64,000 bases of DNA from Thermoanaerobaculia bacterium (lineage in GTDB: Bacteria > Acidobacteriota > Thermoanaerobaculia > Multivoradales > J023). Positions 8,495-38,088 of the stretch are shown one piece after another; the stretch's first letter is position 1; every line of letters begins with the position of its first letter. The notes beneath the pieces were generated by a model. It saw nothing but the letters and a program-made list of their open reading frames with translations, did not search any database and was not told the DNA's origin. The DNA lies in assembly GCA_030431255.1 (NCBI GenBank), contig JAUIJL010000011.1, forward strand, positions 62,001-126,000, given 5' to 3'. Both the position numbers and the translations under genes were made by a program.

Positions 8495-8526
8495 ATGGAT
8501 CTGAGGGTCAGAAACGGCCCTTTAGA

Positions 8527-8730
8527 GCGCATCCAGAAACCGGGTTTGCGAGCAAACATGAGGCTGGGTGGAGCGAGGACGGAAGCGGAGCTTGTCTGAG
8601 CGGCACAGCCTATGGTTCGGCTTAAGTTTTCCACATCAGTAACTTTCGACGGAACAGCACCGGTGGCGCGAGTTCGTAGTGACGCCCGCAGCCCACCCAG
8701 CCGACTCCCGGCGAGCCCGCTTATGGGTGG
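8527..8730 (+). repeat. Dispersed structured repeat, copy 1
   Basis: Copy 1 of a four-copy intergenic element (others at about 16350-16545, 29200-29430 and 37862-38088). Shared blocks include GCTTGTCTGAGCGG, a CCACATCAGTAACTT-like block and GGTGGCGCGAGTTCGTAG. The closing helix pairs 8562-8571 (GGCTGGGTGG) with 8693-8702 (CCACCCAGCC), 10 of 10. The other copies use a different but also self-complementary sequence at the same place. An inner hairpin is formed by AGCC...GGCT. It lies between two convergent genes, so it is unlikely to be a leader for either. The outer limits are approximate. Confidence 0.8.
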
Positions 8731-8753
8731 CGGGAGGTAGATTAGGTTGGAAG

Positions 8754-16334: not shown

Positions 16335-16344
16335 CCTACGTAGG
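16335..16344. promoter_or_regulatory. 10-bp palindrome upstream of lexA
   Basis: CCTACGTAGG is a perfect palindrome 59 nt upstream of the lexA start. LexA commonly represses its own gene, so this could be an operator, but it does not match the Gram-positive or proteobacterial LexA boxes and is short enough to occur by chance. Confidence 0.25.
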
Positions 16345-16349
16345 TTTCT

Positions 16350-16545
16350 TCCGGCTAAGTTGTCTCGGCGGGTCGGCGCGGCACCCTGCGCGCGTCGCTA
16401 CGAGCTCGCACCACCGATGAGGCTTCGCTGAAAGCTACTGATGCGGTGGATCTTAGCCCGATTCATCGGTTGAATCGCTCAGACAAGCTTCGCTTTCCGT
16501 GCTCGGTGCGCCGCGCCTTCCAGGTCCTCGAAGGCACTAAAATTG
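16350..16545 (-). repeat. Dispersed structured repeat, copy 4 (reverse orientation)
   Basis: Reverse-strand copy of the family seen at 8.6, 29.3 and 38.0 kb. On the minus strand the closing helix is GGCGCGGCGC (16517-16508) with GTGCCGCGCC (16384-16375), nine Watson-Crick pairs plus one G-T wobble. The inner hairpin CCGAT-GA-ATCGG is perfect. The copy lies between the divergent lexA and M16 genes and fills most of that 427-base gap. Confidence 0.82.
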
Positions 16546-16703
16546 GACGAAATCAAAGGCAAGCGACGACCGCTCTGGGCCGAAAGATTCCCGCCCGTCG
16601 GCCGCGGTCGCGCCTCGGCTGCGTTCCTTGACAGTCGCTCAGGGGGATCACTACACTGCCCTCCCGCCAATCCCGGCGGCCCTCCCCCGGATACGCCTGC
16701 TTC

Positions 16704-26079: not shown

Positions 26080-27693
26080 GTGAGAAGAGTGTTCAAAAAA
26101 CGAGTAGGCGGCGCTTTATGCGCGGCCGTTTTGGCGGCGCTGCCGGCCGTGCCTGCGTTTGCAGGTCAGGAGCCAGGGGTCCATGCCCTGACCGGCGCCC
26201 GCATCATTCCGGCACCTGGTGAGGTGATCGAGTCCGGGACCCTGGTGATCCGCAACGGCTTGATCGAAGCGATCGGAGCCGACGTGGAGATCCCGGCTGA
26301 GGCGCGGGTCTGGGAGCTCGAAGGCGCGACCCTTTATCCCGGCCTGATCGAGAGCTTCTATCCCCTGAGCTTGCCGATCCCGGAAGACGACGACATGGTG
26401 CCCCAAGGTGGGCACGAAAACCCGTTGGTCACCCCCGACCGCAGCGCTTTCCCGTACGCCCACGACGAAGACGCTTACGCCAAGTTGCAACAAGCGGGTT
26501 TCACCACCGCCGTGCTGGTGCCCAAAAGCGGCCTGTTTCGCGGTCGGAGCGTGTTGGTGAACCTCGGTGAAGGCGGGGTCGGCGAGCAGGTGCTGACCCG
26601 GGACCTGACCCAGGTCGCCCAGCTGGCCACTAGCGCCGACGGCTCGTATCCGGGCTCGCTGATGGGCTCGATCGCGCTCTTCCGTCAGACCCTGCTCGAC
26701 GCCCGCTGGCATGCCGCCGCCCAGAAAGCCTTCGAGGCCAATCCCCGCCAGCAGCGTCCGGAATACAACTCCGCGTGGGACGCTCTTTCCGAGGTGGCGA
26801 CCGGTCGCGAGCCGATCGTGTTGGAAAGCCAAAGCCCTCAAGATATCCATCGTCTGATCGCCCTGGCCGACGAATTCGGGCTCGACGCGATCCTGGTCGG
26901 CAACGGGCGGGAGTATTTGCTCGAAGGCCGGCTGGATACCGCGGGCCATCCGTGGATTCTGCCGGTGAGCCTGCCCAAGGCCCCGTCGGTGGACGAGGAG
27001 CATCCGGAAAAAGCCGATTTGATGGCCCTGCGTCATTGGGATCAAGCGCCGGCGAACGCCCAACGGTTGCTGGCCGGCGGTGCCACCGTGGCGTTCACCT
27101 CCCACGGCAGCAGCGATGCCAAGAAGATTCACGAGCATCTCGCCGTCGCCATCGAGCGGGGTCTGACCGCCGACCAAGCGTTGGCGGCGTTGACCACAAC
27201 CCCCGCGAAGATGTGGGGCATCGCCGATCGGGCGGGCACTCTGGAGGTCGGCAAGATGGCCAATGTGGTGGTCACCGAGGGAGACCTCTTCACCGACAAG
27301 GTCAAGATCACGGCCCTGTGGATCGACGGGGTGCACTCCGAGCTGAAGGAAATCAAACCACCGACGGTCGACCCGGCCGGATCGTGGGACATCACCATCG
27401 ATGCCGGCCCCGGCGGGCAGCTCCAGGTCTCCCTCGCCTTCACCGGCACCGTGGAAGATCTGAGCGGATCCGTCAGCACGCCCCAGGGCAGCCTGGCGAT
27501 GCTCGACGCCTCGGTGTCCGGAGAGTCGGTGGAGTTCTCCATCGATTCCACGCCGTTGGGCATGCCGGGCACGATTTCGTTCGTCATGTCGATTGACGGC
27601 GACACCTGCAGCGGCACCGGCGTCGCACCGCAGGGGGCCTTTACGTTCAAGGGAGATCGCGTCAGCGGTCCGAAACCGGAGGTGATCCGATGA
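26080..27693 (+). CDS. Amidohydrolase-family protein without HxH motif (first of three)
   Basis: A 537-residue secreted protein with a signal peptide ending AFAGQ. The amidohydrolase beta-sandwich (VHALTGARIIP, IEAIGADVEIP) is clear, but where the barrel should carry HxH after PGLID the sequence reads PGLIESFYPLSLP. The C-terminal part of the barrel (TTTPAKMWGIADRAGTLEVGKMANVVV) is intact. An extra C-terminal beta domain of about 100 residues follows. A non-catalytic or altered role is inferred. The GTG start has GGAG 7 nt upstream. The stop overlaps the next ATG as ATGA. Confidence 0.88.
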   Translation: MRRVFKKRVGGALCAAVLAALPAVPAFAGQEPGVHALTGARIIPAPGEVIESGTLVIRNGLIEAIGADVEIPAEARVWELEGATLYPGLIESFYPLSLPIPEDDDMVPQGGHENPLVTPDRSAFPYAHDEDAYAKLQQAGFTTAVLVPKSGLFRGRSVLVNLGEGGVGEQVLTRDLTQVAQLATSADGSYPGSLMGSIALFRQTLLDARWHAAAQKAFEANPRQQRPEYNSAWDALSEVATGREPIVLESQSPQDIHRLIALADEFGLDAILVGNGREYLLEGRLDTAGHPWILPVSLPKAPSVDEEHPEKADLMALRHWDQAPANAQRLLAGGATVAFTSHGSSDAKKIHEHLAVAIERGLTADQALAALTTTPAKMWGIADRAGTLEVGKMANVVVTEGDLFTDKVKITALWIDGVHSELKEIKPPTVDPAGSWDITIDAGPGGQLQVSLAFTGTVEDLSGSVSTPQGSLAMLDASVSGESVEFSIDSTPLGMPGTISFVMSIDGDTCSGTGVAPQGAFTFKGDRVSGPKPEVIR

Positions 27694-29180
27694 TGGCGCC
27701 GAAGTTGTTGAGCCGAGGCGCGAAAGTCGCCGTCCTATGTTCCGCGCTCGCGACCTCCGCGGGCGCTCAAGGGGTTTCCGAGCCGTCCGCTTGGATGGCC
27801 GAGACCCCCGAGCAGCCGGCGAGTGTCTTCGTGCACGACGCCACCATCTGGACCAGTGGGCCGGAAGGCAAGATCGAAAACGGCGACCTGTGGATCCGAG
27901 ACGGCAAAATCGCTGGGGTCGGCCGTGATCTCGAGGTGCCGTCCGGGGCCGATGTAATCGACGGCACGGGCAAGCACGTGACTCCGGGTTTGATCGACGC
28001 CCACAGCCATACGGCCATTTCCGGCAGCGTCAACGAAGGCACCCACATCACCACCGCCGAGGTTCGCATCGCGGACGTGATCAATCCCGACGACGTCAAC
28101 ATCTACCGTCAGCTGGCCGGTGGTTTGACCACGGTCAACATCCTGCACGGCTCCGCCAACTCCATCGGCGGGCAAAATGCGGTGGCAAAGCTGCGTTGGG
28201 GTAGCCCGGCGTCGGAGATGCTCTTTGCGGGCGCGCCCCAGGGCATCAAATTCGCGCTCGGCGAGAACCCCAAACAATCGAATTGGGGAGACGACGACAA
28301 CCCGAGATATCCCCAGACCCGTCAAGGTGTGGAGCAATCCATCCGGGAGCGCTTCCTGGCCGCACGGGAATATCAGAAGCGATGGAAGGCCTACAAAGCG
28401 GCCGGTGGCGCCAAGAGCCAGTTGGTGCCGCCCCGTCGCGACTTACAGCTCGAAGCGGTGGCCGAGATTCTCGACGGCAATCGCTTGGTGCACTCCCACT
28501 CTTACCGCGCGGACGAGATCCTGATGTTGTTGGGCCTGTCCAAGGAATTCGGCTTCACCATCGCCACCTTCCAACACGTTTTGGAGGGTTACAAAGTGGC
28601 CGACGAGCTGGCGGCCCACGGTGCCGGCGCGTCTACCTTCAGCGATTGGTGGGCCTATAAATTCGAGGTCATCGACGCCATTCCCCATAACGGCGCCATC
28701 ATGTGGGACCGCGGTGTCACGGTGTCGTTCAACTCCGACAGCGACGAGCTCGCGCGTCACATGAATTTGGAGGCCGCCAAAGCCGTCCGCTACGGCGGGG
28801 TCCCCGAGTCGGAGGCGCTCAAATTCGTCACCCTGAACCCGGCGAAACAGCTGCGCATCCACGATCGCGTCGGCTCGTTGGAAAAGGGCAAGGACGCTGA
28901 TTTCGTGATTTGGAACGGCCATCCCCTTTCGACCCTGAGCATGTGCGAGCAAACCTGGATCGACGGTCGGAAATATTTCGATCGCGAGCAGGATCTGGCG
29001 GCCCGGGAGGTTCTGGAGGCCGAGCGCCGTGCTTTGATCGACAAAGTGGTGGCGAGCAAGAAGTCCGCCGAAGAGGAAGACGGTGGGGAAAACGAAGAAG
29101 GCGGCGAAGAGGAGACTTCCGCCGAAACCGAAGGTGAGGATCCGGAGAGCTCGACCGATCCCGAGGAGGTGGCGCGATGA
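27690..29180 (+). CDS. Amidohydrolase, metal-dependent (second of three)
   Basis: A 496-residue secreted amidohydrolase. The signal peptide ends SAGAQ. The metal site is intact: LIDAHSHTA (HxH), VHSHSYRADE, QHVLEGYK and SFNSDSDE. The tail (about 445-496) is extremely acidic (Glu/Asp runs). The family hydrolyses amide or related bonds, and imidazolonepropionase-like dipeptidases are the nearest theme; the substrate is not readable. It is coupled to its neighbours at both ends (ATGA overlaps at 27690-27693 and 29177-29180). Confidence 0.92.
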   Translation: MMAPKLLSRGAKVAVLCSALATSAGAQGVSEPSAWMAETPEQPASVFVHDATIWTSGPEGKIENGDLWIRDGKIAGVGRDLEVPSGADVIDGTGKHVTPGLIDAHSHTAISGSVNEGTHITTAEVRIADVINPDDVNIYRQLAGGLTTVNILHGSANSIGGQNAVAKLRWGSPASEMLFAGAPQGIKFALGENPKQSNWGDDDNPRYPQTRQGVEQSIRERFLAAREYQKRWKAYKAAGGAKSQLVPPRRDLQLEAVAEILDGNRLVHSHSYRADEILMLLGLSKEFGFTIATFQHVLEGYKVADELAAHGAGASTFSDWWAYKFEVIDAIPHNGAIMWDRGVTVSFNSDSDELARHMNLEAAKAVRYGGVPESEALKFVTLNPAKQLRIHDRVGSLEKGKDADFVIWNGHPLSTLSMCEQTWIDGRKYFDREQDLAAREVLEAERRALIDKVVASKKSAEEEDGGENEEGGEEETSAETEGEDPESSTDPEEVAR

Positions 29181-29199
29181 GCCGCAAAAGCATTGGATG

Positions 29200-29430
29200 G
29201 AAACGCCTAGCTCAGCTCGGTCCAGTCCCAGCGTTTTCGAGGATCTGGAAGGCGCGGCGTACCGAGCACGGAAAGCGGAGACTGTCTGAGCGGCACAACC
29301 TTTGGGTCGGCTTAAGATCCACCACATCAGTAGCTTGTGTCGAAGCTGCGGCGGTGGCGCGAGTTTCGGAGCGACGCGCGCAGGGCGCCGCGCCGACCCA
29401 CCGAGAAAGCATTTCTGGATGGAACCCAGC
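29200..29430 (+). repeat. Dispersed structured repeat, copy 2, inside the 5' end of the third amidohydrolase
   Basis: Copy of the family found at 8.6, 16.4 and 38.0 kb. The closing helix is GGCGCGGCGT (29251-29260) with GCGCCGCGCC (29385-29394), nine pairs plus a T-G wobble. Similar AAAGCATT..GGATGGAA sequences sit on both sides (about 29186 and 29406), as if left by insertion. The element lies between the original ATGA-coupled start (29177) of the third amidohydrolase and its signal-peptide codons, and keeps the frame open. Confidence 0.85.
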
Positions 29431-29437
29431 TCGGGCC

Positions 29438-30703
29438 ATGGCTTGGGTCGCGGTGTCGGCCCTGATGACCCCCGCGCTGTGGGCTGGTGAGCTGACCGCC
29501 TTGGTGGGTGCCACCGTGCATCCGATCAGCGGACCGGCCATTGAAGACGGTGTCGTGTTGATGCGCGACGGTCTCATCGAAGGGGTCGGCAACGGCATCG
29601 AGGTGCCCTCGGACGCCCAGCGTATCGAGCTCGACGGCAAGCACATTTATCCCGGGTTCGTGCACCCGCTGACCCCCCTCGGCCTGTCCGAGATCGGCAG
29701 TGTTCGCGGGACCGTGGACACCCGTGAGATCGGCGACAACAATTCCGACATCCGCGCCGAGGTGGCGTTCAACGCCGACTCCTTGCGTTTGCCGGCCGCC
29801 CTCGCGGGAGGGGTGACCAGCGCCTTGGTATATCAAAACGGAGGTCTGTTCTCCGGCACCTCGGCGTTGATGCGTCTCGAAGGTTGGAATTGGCGAGACA
29901 TGATGATCGAGGCGCCGGTCGGGCTGCACCTGATGTTCCCGGCCGTGGTCGAAAGCGATGACGACGACGATGAGGAAGCCTCCGCGGCGGCCAAGAAAGC
30001 GCTCAAGGAGCTGAACCAATGGTTGGCCCGGGCCCGCGCCTACGGCAAAGCGGATCGCGCCGATCTCAAGGGCCTCGAAGTGAATCCCAAGCTGGAGCGT
30101 TTGGTGTCCTTGGTCGACGGCGAGCTACGGCTTTTCGTACACGTCTCCGGTCGATCCCAGATCGGCCAAGCCCTGGATTGGCTGGCGGAGCAGAGCTTCG
30201 GGGACGTCGTGCTGGTGCTCGACTACAACGCCCGCTACCTGGCCGATCGCCTGAAGGAAGCCGGCTATCCGGTGATCCTCAACGGTGTGCACGAGCTGCC
30301 CAACAATGCCTGGGAGCCCTACGACGCGGTCTACGGCGCCGCGGCCGCCCTGCACGAAGCCGGGGTGACCTTCTGCATCGGTGACGGCGGCAGCGGCTTC
30401 GGCTCGTCCAACGCCCGCAACTTGCCGTTCCAGGCAGCCATGGCCGTCGCCTATGGGCTGGATCGCGAGCAGGGGCTCCGTAGCATCACCCTGGGTGCGG
30501 CCGAGATCCTGGGAGTCGCCGATCGATTGGGCTCGTTGGAGCCGGGCAAAGAAGCCTCGTTGATGGTCACCAATGGCGATCCCTTGGAGTCCATCACCTC
30601 CATCGAGCAGGTGTTCGTGGCCGGTCGCAAGATCGATCCCGACGACAATCATCAACATCGTTTGTATCGGAAATACGCGGAGCGCCCGAAACCCGCGGAC
30701 TGA
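29438..30703 (+). CDS. Amidohydrolase-family protein without HxH motif (third of three)
   Basis: About 421 residues from the ATG at 29438, where a signal peptide begins (MAWVAVSALMTPALWAGEL). The same frame is open back to the ATG at 29177, which overlaps the previous stop as ATGA; that upstream part is repeat-derived, so either start may be used. The barrel start reads YPGFVHPLTPLGL, again without HxH, but YQNGGLFSGTSALMRL and the C-terminal SLEPGKEASLMVTNGDP match the first gene of the trio. It is therefore a second likely non-catalytic homologue. Confidence 0.82.
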   Translation: MAWVAVSALMTPALWAGELTALVGATVHPISGPAIEDGVVLMRDGLIEGVGNGIEVPSDAQRIELDGKHIYPGFVHPLTPLGLSEIGSVRGTVDTREIGDNNSDIRAEVAFNADSLRLPAALAGGVTSALVYQNGGLFSGTSALMRLEGWNWRDMMIEAPVGLHLMFPAVVESDDDDDEEASAAAKKALKELNQWLARARAYGKADRADLKGLEVNPKLERLVSLVDGELRLFVHVSGRSQIGQALDWLAEQSFGDVVLVLDYNARYLADRLKEAGYPVILNGVHELPNNAWEPYDAVYGAAAALHEAGVTFCIGDGGSGFGSSNARNLPFQAAMAVAYGLDREQGLRSITLGAAEILGVADRLGSLEPGKEASLMVTNGDPLESITSIEQVFVAGRKIDPDDNHQHRLYRKYAERPKPAD

Positions 30704-35319: not shown

Positions 35320-37677
35320 CTATTCCGGTGTGGTCGTCAGGGTCAAACCGGAGTAGGTGGAGTAGGCGCGCACCATGATGTAGTACGTGCCGCTCGACGC
35401 GGGGTCGATCACGCAGCTCTCGTTGCTGCCGGAGGTGTAGCCGCGACAGTCGTAAGTGCTGGTGGTGGGGGCTGCGCCGAGGCGCACGTAGAGATCCGCG
35501 TCACCGCTGCTGCCCGAGGTGGTCACCGTGAGCTTGGAGCTGGTGGTGATCGCCTGGGTGAAGCTCTGCTCGTTGCCCGTGGAGCCGGACAAACCGCTCC
35601 AGGTTTGACCGGAGTCTCCGCCGCCCACGTCGTAGTCGGCGACCAGGGTCAATCCGGAGTAGGTGGAGTAGGCGCGGATCATGACGTGGTAGGTGCCGGC
35701 CGAGGGAGCCGCAAAGGTGCAGTTTTCCGCGTTGCCGGTCTTGTACGGACGGCAATCGTATTGACTGGTGGTCGGGGCGCTGCCGAAGCGCACGTAGAGA
35801 TCCGCGTCGCCGGAGCCGCCGGAGATGTCGAAGGTCAAGTTGGAGGCGCCGGCAGGAACGCTGAGGGTGAAGCTCTGCTCGTTGCCGGTGGATCCGCCGA
35901 GACCGGTGACCGGAACGCCCTTGGAGAGGCTGCCGCCACCGCCACCGCCACCGCCACCGCCACCGCCGCCGCCACCGCCACCGCCGCCGCCACCACCACC
36001 ACCACCACCGGTGTAGCTTCCTTCGAGGGAAACACCGGAGTAGGTGGAGTAGGCACGGATCATGACGTGGTAGGTGCCGCCTTGGGCGGGATCGATCGGG
36101 CAGGACTCGCTATTGCCGCCGACGTAGGGGCGGCAGTCGTAGGTGGACGTGGTGGGCGCGCTGCCGAAGCGCACGTAGAGGTCGGCGTCGCCGGTGCCTC
36201 CGGACATATCGAAGCTCAGATTCGAGGAGCCCGCGGGCACGTCGAGGGTGAAGAATTGCTCGTTGCCGGTAGATCCGGAGAGGCCGGTGACCGGCACGCC
36301 GTTGGTGAGCACGGTGGGGCCACCGCCACCGCCACCGCCACCGCCACCGCCACCGCCACCGCCAGTGGCGCAGGCCGGGGTATTGGAGCCGAGGTCGGCG
36401 AGCACGGCTTCGATCGGCACACCGAGGTTGTCGCAGCCACCGCAGTGGTGCAGGGCGACCACCAGATTGTCGCTGTAACCGAGCACCGGCGAGCCGGACG
36501 ATCCGCCCTGGGTGTCGGCGAAGTATCCGACGTCGAATCCGGAGCCGCCGCAGCGGCCTTCGGTGGTGCTGGACACCTTGGCGAAACCACCGTCCGACGA
36601 GTGGGACGACTCCATGGCGATGCGTTTGCCCCAGCCCGCGGGGTGTTGGGCGATGTAGATGCGCTCGCCCACGGTGGCGCCGCTGCTGCGCGCTTGTAGA
36701 TAGCCGTAGGTGTTGGAGAGATTGCCGGTGCCCGGCGGATCGACGAGCGCGTAGTCGAGGTTGGCGTCCACGGACACCAAGGTACCGCCGGAGGCTTCGA
36801 TGGTGCCGCCGCAAGCACCGCCGCTTCGGCAATCTTGGGAGCAGGACGAGCCCTCGGCCATGAATTCGAAGTCGATGTTGTTGAGCTCGCTTTGGCTGCC
36901 GATGCAATGCTCGTTGGTCATGATGTGGCCTTCGCAACCGATCAACCAACCCGTGCAGTGGATGTTACCGTTCTTGAAGAGTCGAGCCACGGCCCGGGCT
37001 TCGTTGTAGGCGTCCGGCTCGCTCGATTGATAACACTTGGCCTCGCGGGAGTCGTCGGTGCCGCAAATGGACTTCGCGTTCATGAAGTCCGGCTCGGGCA
37101 GCTGCATGGCCTCACCGTGACCGGCGATCCAATAGGCCTCGATTTCGTCGTTGCTGTAGCCCCGGCCGAAGTAGTCGATTTGCACGCCCCACGGCTCGGC
37201 CCGCAGCGCTTTATCGAAGGCCGCCGCGGGATTGGCGGAGAATAGCTCCAACACCACGGTGTCGCCTTTGATGTGGGTGGCGAAGAAACCTTCTTTGGAC
37301 ACGCCGAGGCCGACTCGGCCTTGATCGGTGTAGGTCCAATGCTGTGAGCCGTCCTCCGAACGCACCACCAGGACGTCGCCTGGAGGCAGGTTGAGCCAGG
37401 AGAAGTGGGGCGCGATGTAGGTGGCGCCGGGGAAGACGATGACATCCGACCAGGTGATCTGAGCGGCCTGCTTCTCGAGCCCCGGGCGAGCGTTCTTGTC
37501 GAGGCGCGCGTGGGGGTAGTAGTGGGTGGGCGTTCCGTATTCTTGGTAGACGTATTCACCGATTACGTTTTGCGCCGCGGCGGGCAACGTGATCAGGGAG
37601 CAGACCAGGGCCACGAGGGCGAAGAGCACGGCGGACCGCGCGTACGAAGGTCGATGCGAAACAACGAGCTTTTCCAT
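35320..37677 (-). CDS. Secreted trypsin-like serine protease with three PPC domains and poly-Gly linkers
   Basis: A 785-residue exported protein. After a signal peptide (ending TLPAAAQ) and a propeptide-like domain of about 185 residues comes an S1-type protease domain. The triad is visible as His in TNEHC, Asp in ANLDYALV and Ser in GGSSGSPV, with many cysteines. Three pre-peptidase C-terminal domains follow, each ending in an AYSTYSG motif. The first two are preceded by runs of about 15 and 27 glycines. The TTG at 37680 and ATG at 37677 are adjacent starts. It likely degrades extracellular protein. A terminator follows directly. Confidence 0.92.
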   Translation of the reverse strand: MEKLVVSHRPSYARSAVLFALVALVCSLITLPAAAQNVIGEYVYQEYGTPTHYYPHARLDKNARPGLEKQAAQITWSDVIVFPGATYIAPHFSWLNLPPGDVLVVRSEDGSQHWTYTDQGRVGLGVSKEGFFATHIKGDTVVLELFSANPAAAFDKALRAEPWGVQIDYFGRGYSNDEIEAYWIAGHGEAMQLPEPDFMNAKSICGTDDSREAKCYQSSEPDAYNEARAVARLFKNGNIHCTGWLIGCEGHIMTNEHCIGSQSELNNIDFEFMAEGSSCSQDCRSGGACGGTIEASGGTLVSVDANLDYALVDPPGTGNLSNTYGYLQARSSGATVGERIYIAQHPAGWGKRIAMESSHSSDGGFAKVSSTTEGRCGGSGFDVGYFADTQGGSSGSPVLGYSDNLVVALHHCGGCDNLGVPIEAVLADLGSNTPACATGGGGGGGGGGGGGGGPTVLTNGVPVTGLSGSTGNEQFFTLDVPAGSSNLSFDMSGGTGDADLYVRFGSAPTTSTYDCRPYVGGNSESCPIDPAQGGTYHVMIRAYSTYSGVSLEGSYTGGGGGGGGGGGGGGGGGGGGGGGGGGSLSKGVPVTGLGGSTGNEQSFTLSVPAGASNLTFDISGGSGDADLYVRFGSAPTTSQYDCRPYKTGNAENCTFAAPSAGTYHVMIRAYSTYSGLTLVADYDVGGGDSGQTWSGLSGSTGNEQSFTQAITTSSKLTVTTSGSSGDADLYVRLGAAPTTSTYDCRGYTSGSNESCVIDPASSGTYYIMVRAYSTYSGLTLTTTPE
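35936..36010. repeat. Triplet repeat encoding about 27 glycines
   Basis: A CCACCG/CCGCC microsatellite on the given strand encodes the second poly-Gly linker of the protease. Slippage would change linker length by whole residues. Confidence 0.85.
36318..36363. repeat. Triplet repeat encoding about 15 glycines
   Basis: A near-perfect CCACCG hexamer array on the given strand encodes the linker between the protease domain and the first PPC domain. Confidence 0.85.
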
Positions 37678-37861
37678 CAATCACATACCTCAGAAGGGAC
37701 CCCCATCCGGGGTCTTGAGTCATGGTGCCGATTGCTCGGCGAAGTCTCCCGATATCGGGAGCTGTGTTTGGGTGTGCCGAGCAGTACAGCAAGACCCTTG
37801 CCGGCTCGCGACGGCCGTCTTGCATTCAAGCCGAGATGTGGGTGTAAGCCTTGGATCTAGA

Positions 37862-38088
37862 GCCTGCTGGGTTCCGTCCAGGCTCGGCGTTTTCGAGGCT
37901 CTCGAAGGCGCGGCGCACCGAGCACGGAAAGCGAAGCTTGTCTGAGCGGTTCAGCCGATGGATCGGCCTAAAGTTCAACATATCAGCAACTTGCGGCGGC
38001 AATCAGTGATGGCGCGAGTTCGTAGCGACGCGCACAGGGCGCCGCGCCGACTCTTCGAGAATCCTTTTCTGGACGCGACCCTGCTAGG
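37862..38088 (+). repeat. Dispersed structured repeat, copy 3
   Basis: The best-preserved copy. Outer imperfect arms are 37862-37880 and 38069-38088. The closing helix pairs 37907-37916 with 38039-38048 (10 of 10). The inner hairpin is GCCGAT-GG-ATCGGC at 37954-37967. It fills the 525-base gap between the VOC gene and the protease gene. No ORF there is convincing. Confidence 0.85.

Follow-up and report, generated by a model that had tools for sequence, protein, structure and literature searches.

RESULTS

A dispersed repeat lies in frame within the third gene of an amidohydrolase operon

How does a dispersed repeat come to lie within the 5′ end of an enzyme gene with the reading frame left open, and where does the protein then begin? 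The locus that raises these questions is in the 64,000-nt window (the whole stretch of DNA analyzed here), which comes from a genome assembled as 54 contigs with a total of 10.19 Mb. Gene 1 (26080–27693), gene 2 (27690–29180), and gene 3 (29177–30703) form a consecutive amidohydrolase operon on the plus strand, as identified from ORFs, translations, and Pfam (PF01979/PF07969 for gene 3), with an ATGA overlap at each junction (27690–27693 and 29177–29180). The gene 3 start codon at 29177–29179, which we take as ancestral from the sequence and from related loci, overlaps the gene 2 stop and lies 7 nt downstream of a Shine-Dalgarno AGGAGG (29164–29169); comparable start contexts are found in several related loci. 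From 29177 the frame runs open past an internal ATG (29438) as far as the stop at 30703, giving 508 aa, and the first 15 codons from this internal ATG (29438–29482) encode the hydrophobic signal-peptide segment MAWVAVSALMTPALW. A first-pass annotation of this DNA had held that the 29177 start overlaps the gene 2 stop just as at the junction of genes 1 and 2, that a repeat separates this start from the signal-peptide codons at 29438, and that all 87 intervening codons are open. Sequence and translation confirmed each of these points, and other copies of the repeat family were located in the genome.

We interpret the locus as an in-frame insertion of a mobile miniature element into gene 3, with a probability of about 0.82. 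The sequence shows the insertion and the open frame directly; that the element arrived by transposition is inferred.

The inserted DNA has the anatomy of a miniature inverted-repeat element

The inserted DNA belongs to an interspersed repeat family, of which the window contains three further copies. Two of these were recovered by search, alignment, and model, namely 8519–8740 (plus strand, stem type GGCTGG, between convergent genes) and 16337–16560 (minus strand, stem type GGCGCG, between divergent genes); the remaining one, at 37864–38086 (plus strand, stem type GGCGCG), was recovered by search, alignment, model, and 6-mer test and is flanked by target copies CTGCTG/CTGCTA. Separately, the window contains GCCACC runs and longer imperfect direct repeats at 35339–36379, within the minus-strand ORF 35320–37680. 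Across the 10.19-Mb genome, a covariance model built from 36 core sequences identified 43 full-length cores and 3 weak ones, and blastn returned at least 42 matches, with 40 of 106 candidates scored. The 39 copies that were aligned measure 222–237 nt with both target copies included.

Judged on these alignments, the repeat is a miniature inverted-repeat element of ~213 nt with imperfect terminal inverted repeats and a target duplication of ~6 bp (consensus TAGCTA). It combines the features by which MITEs are recognized: terminal inverted repeats, target-site duplication, and short length with many dispersed copies. Where they are better preserved among the 39 aligned copies, the termini read GRTTCCRTCCAG .. 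CTGGAYGGAAYC; they are imperfect in the gene 3 copy and have decayed in others. In gene 3, family alignment, genome search, and net length place the element at 29214–29426 on the plus strand (213 nt, or a net insertion of 219 nt with the duplication). Its left terminal inverted repeat is AGCTCGGTCCAG at 29214–29225 (consensus GGTTCCGTCCAG; 9 of 12) and its right one is CTGGATGGAACC at 29415–29426. Between them lies the structured core at 29238–29396, in which helices 1 and 2 are fully paired (16 of 16 pairs), according to the covariance model and pair checks.

Target duplications were assessed by comparing the 6-mers on the two sides of each copy. Left and right 6-mers agree at five or more of six bases in 16 of the 39 copies, compared with 3.7 expected from mismatched pairs, and at four or fewer in the other 23; the mean match of 3.33 exceeds all 2,000 permutations, the largest of which reached 3.03. 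For gene 3, the duplication is best read as TAGCTC at 29208–29213, from the alignment and 6-mer test, and CAGCTC at 29427–29432, from the 6-mer test. These agree at five of six bases and would give a net gain of 219 nt, or 73 codons. The joined flanks then read MSRKSIGWKRLARAMAWVAVSALMTPALWAG in one frame (MSRKSIGWKRLARAMAWVAVSALMTPALWAGELTALVGATVHP..), which looks like a normal signal peptide leading into the enzyme, and the predicted empty site runs ..CGCCTAGCTC directly into GGGCCATGG.. (..CGCCTAGCTCGGGCC..). Two points count against this reading: the left terminus of the gene 3 copy departs from the consensus at 3 of 12 bases, and a rival pair, CAGCTC/CAGCTC, matches at six of six bases.

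The flanking similarity is partly the end of the element itself

The first-pass annotation had also pointed to similar AAAGCATT..GGATGGAA sequences flanking the repeat. The similarity exists, at 29187–29202 and at 29406–29424, where three extra bases separate the halves; as a target duplication of the insertion it had to be given up, because the apparent right copy belongs to the right end of the element itself, with only the left copy outside the element, and because the duplication test backs the TAGCTC/CAGCTC 6-mers. The left-flank sequence, AAAGCATTGGATGGAA (29187–29202, plus strand), resembles the element's right end with an alignment score above those of all 19,580 random 28-mers from the window, and is possibly the remnant of an older copy. 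Element-end resemblance at p < 0.02 was found in 7 of 86 flanks, with ~1.7 expected. The left flanks that passed were those of the gene 3 copy, L041 (right end), L022 (right end, weaker, p 0.003), and L030 (left end), and the right flanks were those of L012, L030, and L035. Such end-like sequences just outside the target copies suggest repeated insertion at one spot. Since each copy carries the preferred target in its flanks, insertion beside an older, mostly lost copy would be one explanation of the similarity.

Most related loci have no room for the 87 codons

We compared 19 related loci, measuring from the first ATG of the frame to an aligned conserved block, with GTG starts left out; some of these loci are just 37–43% identical and may be paralogues. 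The first ATG lies 67–109 residues before the block in 16 of the 19, and the other 3 have no ATG in the range scanned. Among the nine loci at 47–57% identity (L045–L053), eight give 74–102 residues and L051 has no ATG. In gene 3 the distance is now 157 residues, and subtracting the 73 inserted codons gives 84. The nearest orthologues are 51–57% identical, and the comparison is thus one with related loci rather than with a second strain of the species. Conservation of the 87 codons as protein in relatives had been named in advance as the observation that would count against an insertion; given the start-to-block spacings of 16 of 19 loci, the codons are not conserved protein in the loci examined.

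Two other accounts of the inserted stretch can be weighed against this evidence. One would take the 87 codons as an old, genuine extension of the protein whose resemblance to the repeat is secondary. Apart from the open frame we found nothing in its favor, the sequence occurs at more than 40 places, most frames are interrupted by stops in the 39 copies examined, and related loci with a usable start leave no space for it; we consider it refuted within the loci examined and otherwise of negligible probability. The other account accepts the element and takes the exact CAGCTC pair (29213–29218 and 29427–29432) as the true duplication, giving a net length of 214 nt and a frame restored later by another change. 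Its six-of-six match has to be set against a left terminus that must be ~5 nt short, a poorer fit to the TAGCTA consensus (4 of 6 versus 5 of 6), and joined flanks that contain stops and are out of frame with the enzyme, though related loci use a start in that position. We judge it quite unlikely, and retain the 219-nt insertion.

The open frame could have survived by chance

In the gene 3 register, 4 of the 39 aligned copies are open, the gene 3 copy included, and 6 of 39 are open in any forward frame. Net length is divisible by three in 14 of 39 copies. Divisibility and an open frame (six frames counted) coincide in three, namely the gene 3 copy, L040, and 8519–8740, two of which are the copies found inside ORFs. 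The consensus of three close copies (L009, L010, and L013) is itself open in the gene 3 register, and when 41 differences, an upper bound on the changes since insertion, were simulated from it at the same divergence, 17% of the sequences stayed open. We had considered the open frame as proof of selection; with 4 of 39 copies and 17% of simulations open, it is weak proof, and, as the close-copy consensus was open from the outset, no selection on the peptide is shown. The frame of gene 3 would have survived because 219 nt corresponds to 73 codons, inserted in a register with few stops among the close copies.

Translation probably still begins at the ancestral start

The annotation had left two options for the start of the protein, at 29438 or at 29177 with an internal signal peptide, and the longer form proved the better supported. 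The match to AGGAGG is 6/6 at 29177 and 3/6 at both 29438 and 29354. As the Shine-Dalgarno sequence and the stop-start overlap are both still present, gene 3 is most likely still translated from 29177, even with a codon-usage gene caller placing the start at 29438.

Two rival readings concern translation and the fate of the protein, and both are compatible with an in-frame insertion. Translation might now start within or after the element (GTG 29354 or ATG 29438), leaving the repeat as a mostly untranslated structured leader. The codon-usage model speaks for this, as do the hydrophobic segment directly after 29438 and the very stable single-strand fold of the repeat (−93 kcal/mol). The stability is, however, what composition alone leads one to expect (z −1.26; 20 of 200 shuffles at least as stable), the AGGAGG matches at both internal starts are poor beside that at 29177, and a protein begun at 29438 would have no basic residue ahead of its hydrophobic stretch; we regard an internal start as doubtful, at well below even odds. 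Alternatively, gene 3 could be turning into a pseudogene, with an open frame that is down to luck and an enzyme that is not exported or not made. The 17% of simulated copies open by chance would allow for this, whereas the 421 codons after 29438 are free of stops and can be aligned with orthologues over almost their whole length (e.g., residues 11–419 and 15–420), and we think decay of the gene unlikely. We favor read-through from 29177 on the strength of its intact initiation signals.

A sequence of events consistent with these observations can be proposed. A transposase acting in trans would have moved the non-autonomous element into TAGCTC, 31 nt inside gene 3, duplicating ~6 bp for a net gain of 219 nt (73 codons), and the frame would have survived in the register largely left open by the element's close copies. 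Ribosomes would load at 29177 and read through the element, so that the signal-peptide n-region would grow from ~14 to 87 residues, mostly hydrophilic and basic (18 K/R and 5 D/E), ahead of an unchanged hydrophobic segment. The product would carry a 73-residue insertion in the n-region of its signal peptide, for which export, anchoring, or an extra internal start are all conceivable.

The core of the element shows signs of selection on structure

In the aligned cores, 97.4% of cells form standard pairs, compared with 29–51% in slid controls, with the structure having been derived from the same sequences, which favors this percentage. Thirteen pairs show double changes against 7.7 in shuffles, and such cells number 81 against 25.4, a tally of sequences rather than of events. 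The 5′ side of helix 1 among the 36 cores is GGCGCG in 21, GGCTGG in 10, and GGCCCA in 3, with two singletons, and each major type has a matching partner. That helix 1 comes in three or more sequence types, each with a partner able to pair with it, suggests selection on structure, as far as covariation in the alignment can indicate. The core also has conserved motifs such as GTCTGAGCGG.

Copies of the family are often placed at stop codons

Gene context was determined using a simple codon-usage gene caller. Of 43 copies, 17 are flanked by convergent genes, 21 by genes that share one direction, and 4 by divergent genes, with the remaining one (L040) inside a called ORF; the gene 3 copy was counted as between genes, as the caller starts gene 3 at 29438. 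Boundaries are approximate for four of the 43 (L065, L102, L103, and L105), and insertion may have shortened some neighboring genes. In 23 of the 43 copies (e.g., L039, L010, and L028), a neighboring gene terminates close to the outer edge of the target copy, with its stop codon at −3 to +9 nt; counted by gene, 25 of 55 facing 3′ ends have their stop in that range. Control points in the window were at a called stop in 4.9% of 2,905 random intergenic positions and, outside copies, in 4 of 73 places that differ from TAGCTA by at most one base and in 6 of 55 CTAG sites. The latter two controls do not support the idea that the target motif alone accounts for the pattern. The motif, with TAG on both strands, explains part of the excess, and survival after insertion or a further preference must therefore add to it.

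The gene 3 copy is an exception to the stop-codon pattern, and is one of two copies among 43 that lie in frame inside protein genes. The other, L040:2459-2681 (G000:C44), is in frame inside a GAF_2-domain protein (P0004) with a transmembrane-like segment and is flanked by the 6-mers CCGACA/CGGACA. L110, a homologue in a genome of the host's family, is without residues matching the L040 insertion. This comparison gives thin support, as two alignment rows (L107 and L108) look misframed and homologue L109 has a different, longer stretch at that place.

The family was found in a single genome among those searched

Run with stricter filters on 149 genomes sampled from the phylum, the covariance model matched none of the 148 besides the host's own. 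A blastn search using one GGCTGG-type copy likewise found none in 58 relatives, including the one other genome of the genus, though this query is less sensitive than the model, having scored just 13 places in its own genome. No match was found in plasmids (query, one GGCTGG-type copy) or in phages (query, the gene 3 copy), no exact pattern match in viral contigs, and no match in the window to Rfam at the gathering score. The literature searched, by text and not by sequence, yielded no description of the family.

Terminus-pattern searches of the host genome did not find an autonomous partner. No full-length autonomous element was recognized at the five new places with terminus matches, which comprise a full copy (L065), a truncated one (L067), an internally deleted one (L068), and two instances of another repeat (L064 and L066). 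A second terminus search, in which 100 of 112 places were judged by eye, gave no new inward-facing pair closer than ~4 kb. The other repeat (L066:3750-4085 and L064:4068-4329) is different in sequence and has the family's terminus; in L066 an internally deleted GGCTGG-type element is attached to it, the composite having target copies TAACTA/TAACCA. At L067:3968-4023 we observed a ~55-nt copy without its 5′ part and with CTAGATAGC on both sides, as if it had inserted truncated. This observation prompted us to consider retro-type mobility, which we did not adopt because truncation at the other end also occurs (beside L030) and because the two-terminus composite of L066 looks to have moved as a unit.

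DISCUSSION

The gene 3 locus would be a clear example of a host protein that has gained a peptide from a selfish miniature element, at a position where export is sensitive to change. From the wider family one may read a simple rule by which a mobile repeat could multiply in a bacterial genome without breaking genes, namely insertion at stop codons, and the compensatory changes in its stem suggest a role for RNA or single-strand structure in the element. A broader picture, which we offer only tentatively, is that of a mobile element with a selected interior structure, at least three sub-lineages of which have rebuilt one stem from different bases. Inserting at stops beyond what the motif predicts, it would regenerate the stop through its duplication and so spread with little harm; the gene 3 copy would then be an escape that survived through its fit in length and frame, giving an exported enzyme with a 73-residue n-region insertion.

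In general form the family resembles other bacterial MITEs, which have terminal inverted repeats and a target duplication but no transposase, in its inverted termini, target duplication, short length, and many dispersed copies. It differs in its TAGCTA target, in the stop codon at the insertion point of 23 of 43 copies, and in a core stem kept by compensatory change over at least three sequence types. The covarying core and the stop-codon position are its more unusual features.

Landing in frame in the export-signal region of an enzyme is, by comparison, a rare accident of a type known in other bacteria. Miniature elements fused in frame with bacterial genes are described in PMC10969869 and PMC2229807, most often for Rickettsia palindromic elements (RPEs), which as short palindromic mobile repeats in frame inside protein-coding genes are like the element in gene 3. 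As portrayed in those accounts, RPEs are shorter (105–146 bp or ~150 bp), and nearly half of the first-reported ones are inside ORFs, versus 2 of 43 copies in the present family; the distinction is drawn from description, not sequence. In-frame fusion with genes is also reported for the miniature elements ERIC, Correia (107-bp form), and YPAL/RU-2 (PMC2229807), and intragenic ERIC copies are reported in PMC10969869. The closest parallel in position is a YPAL fusion that forms part of a predicted signal peptide (PMC2229807). Compared by description and not by sequence, YPAL supplies part of the signal peptide, whereas the gene 3 element splits an existing n-region. In-frame miniature elements are thus already known from Rickettsia RPE, ERIC, and Correia, and the gene 3 copy adds another.
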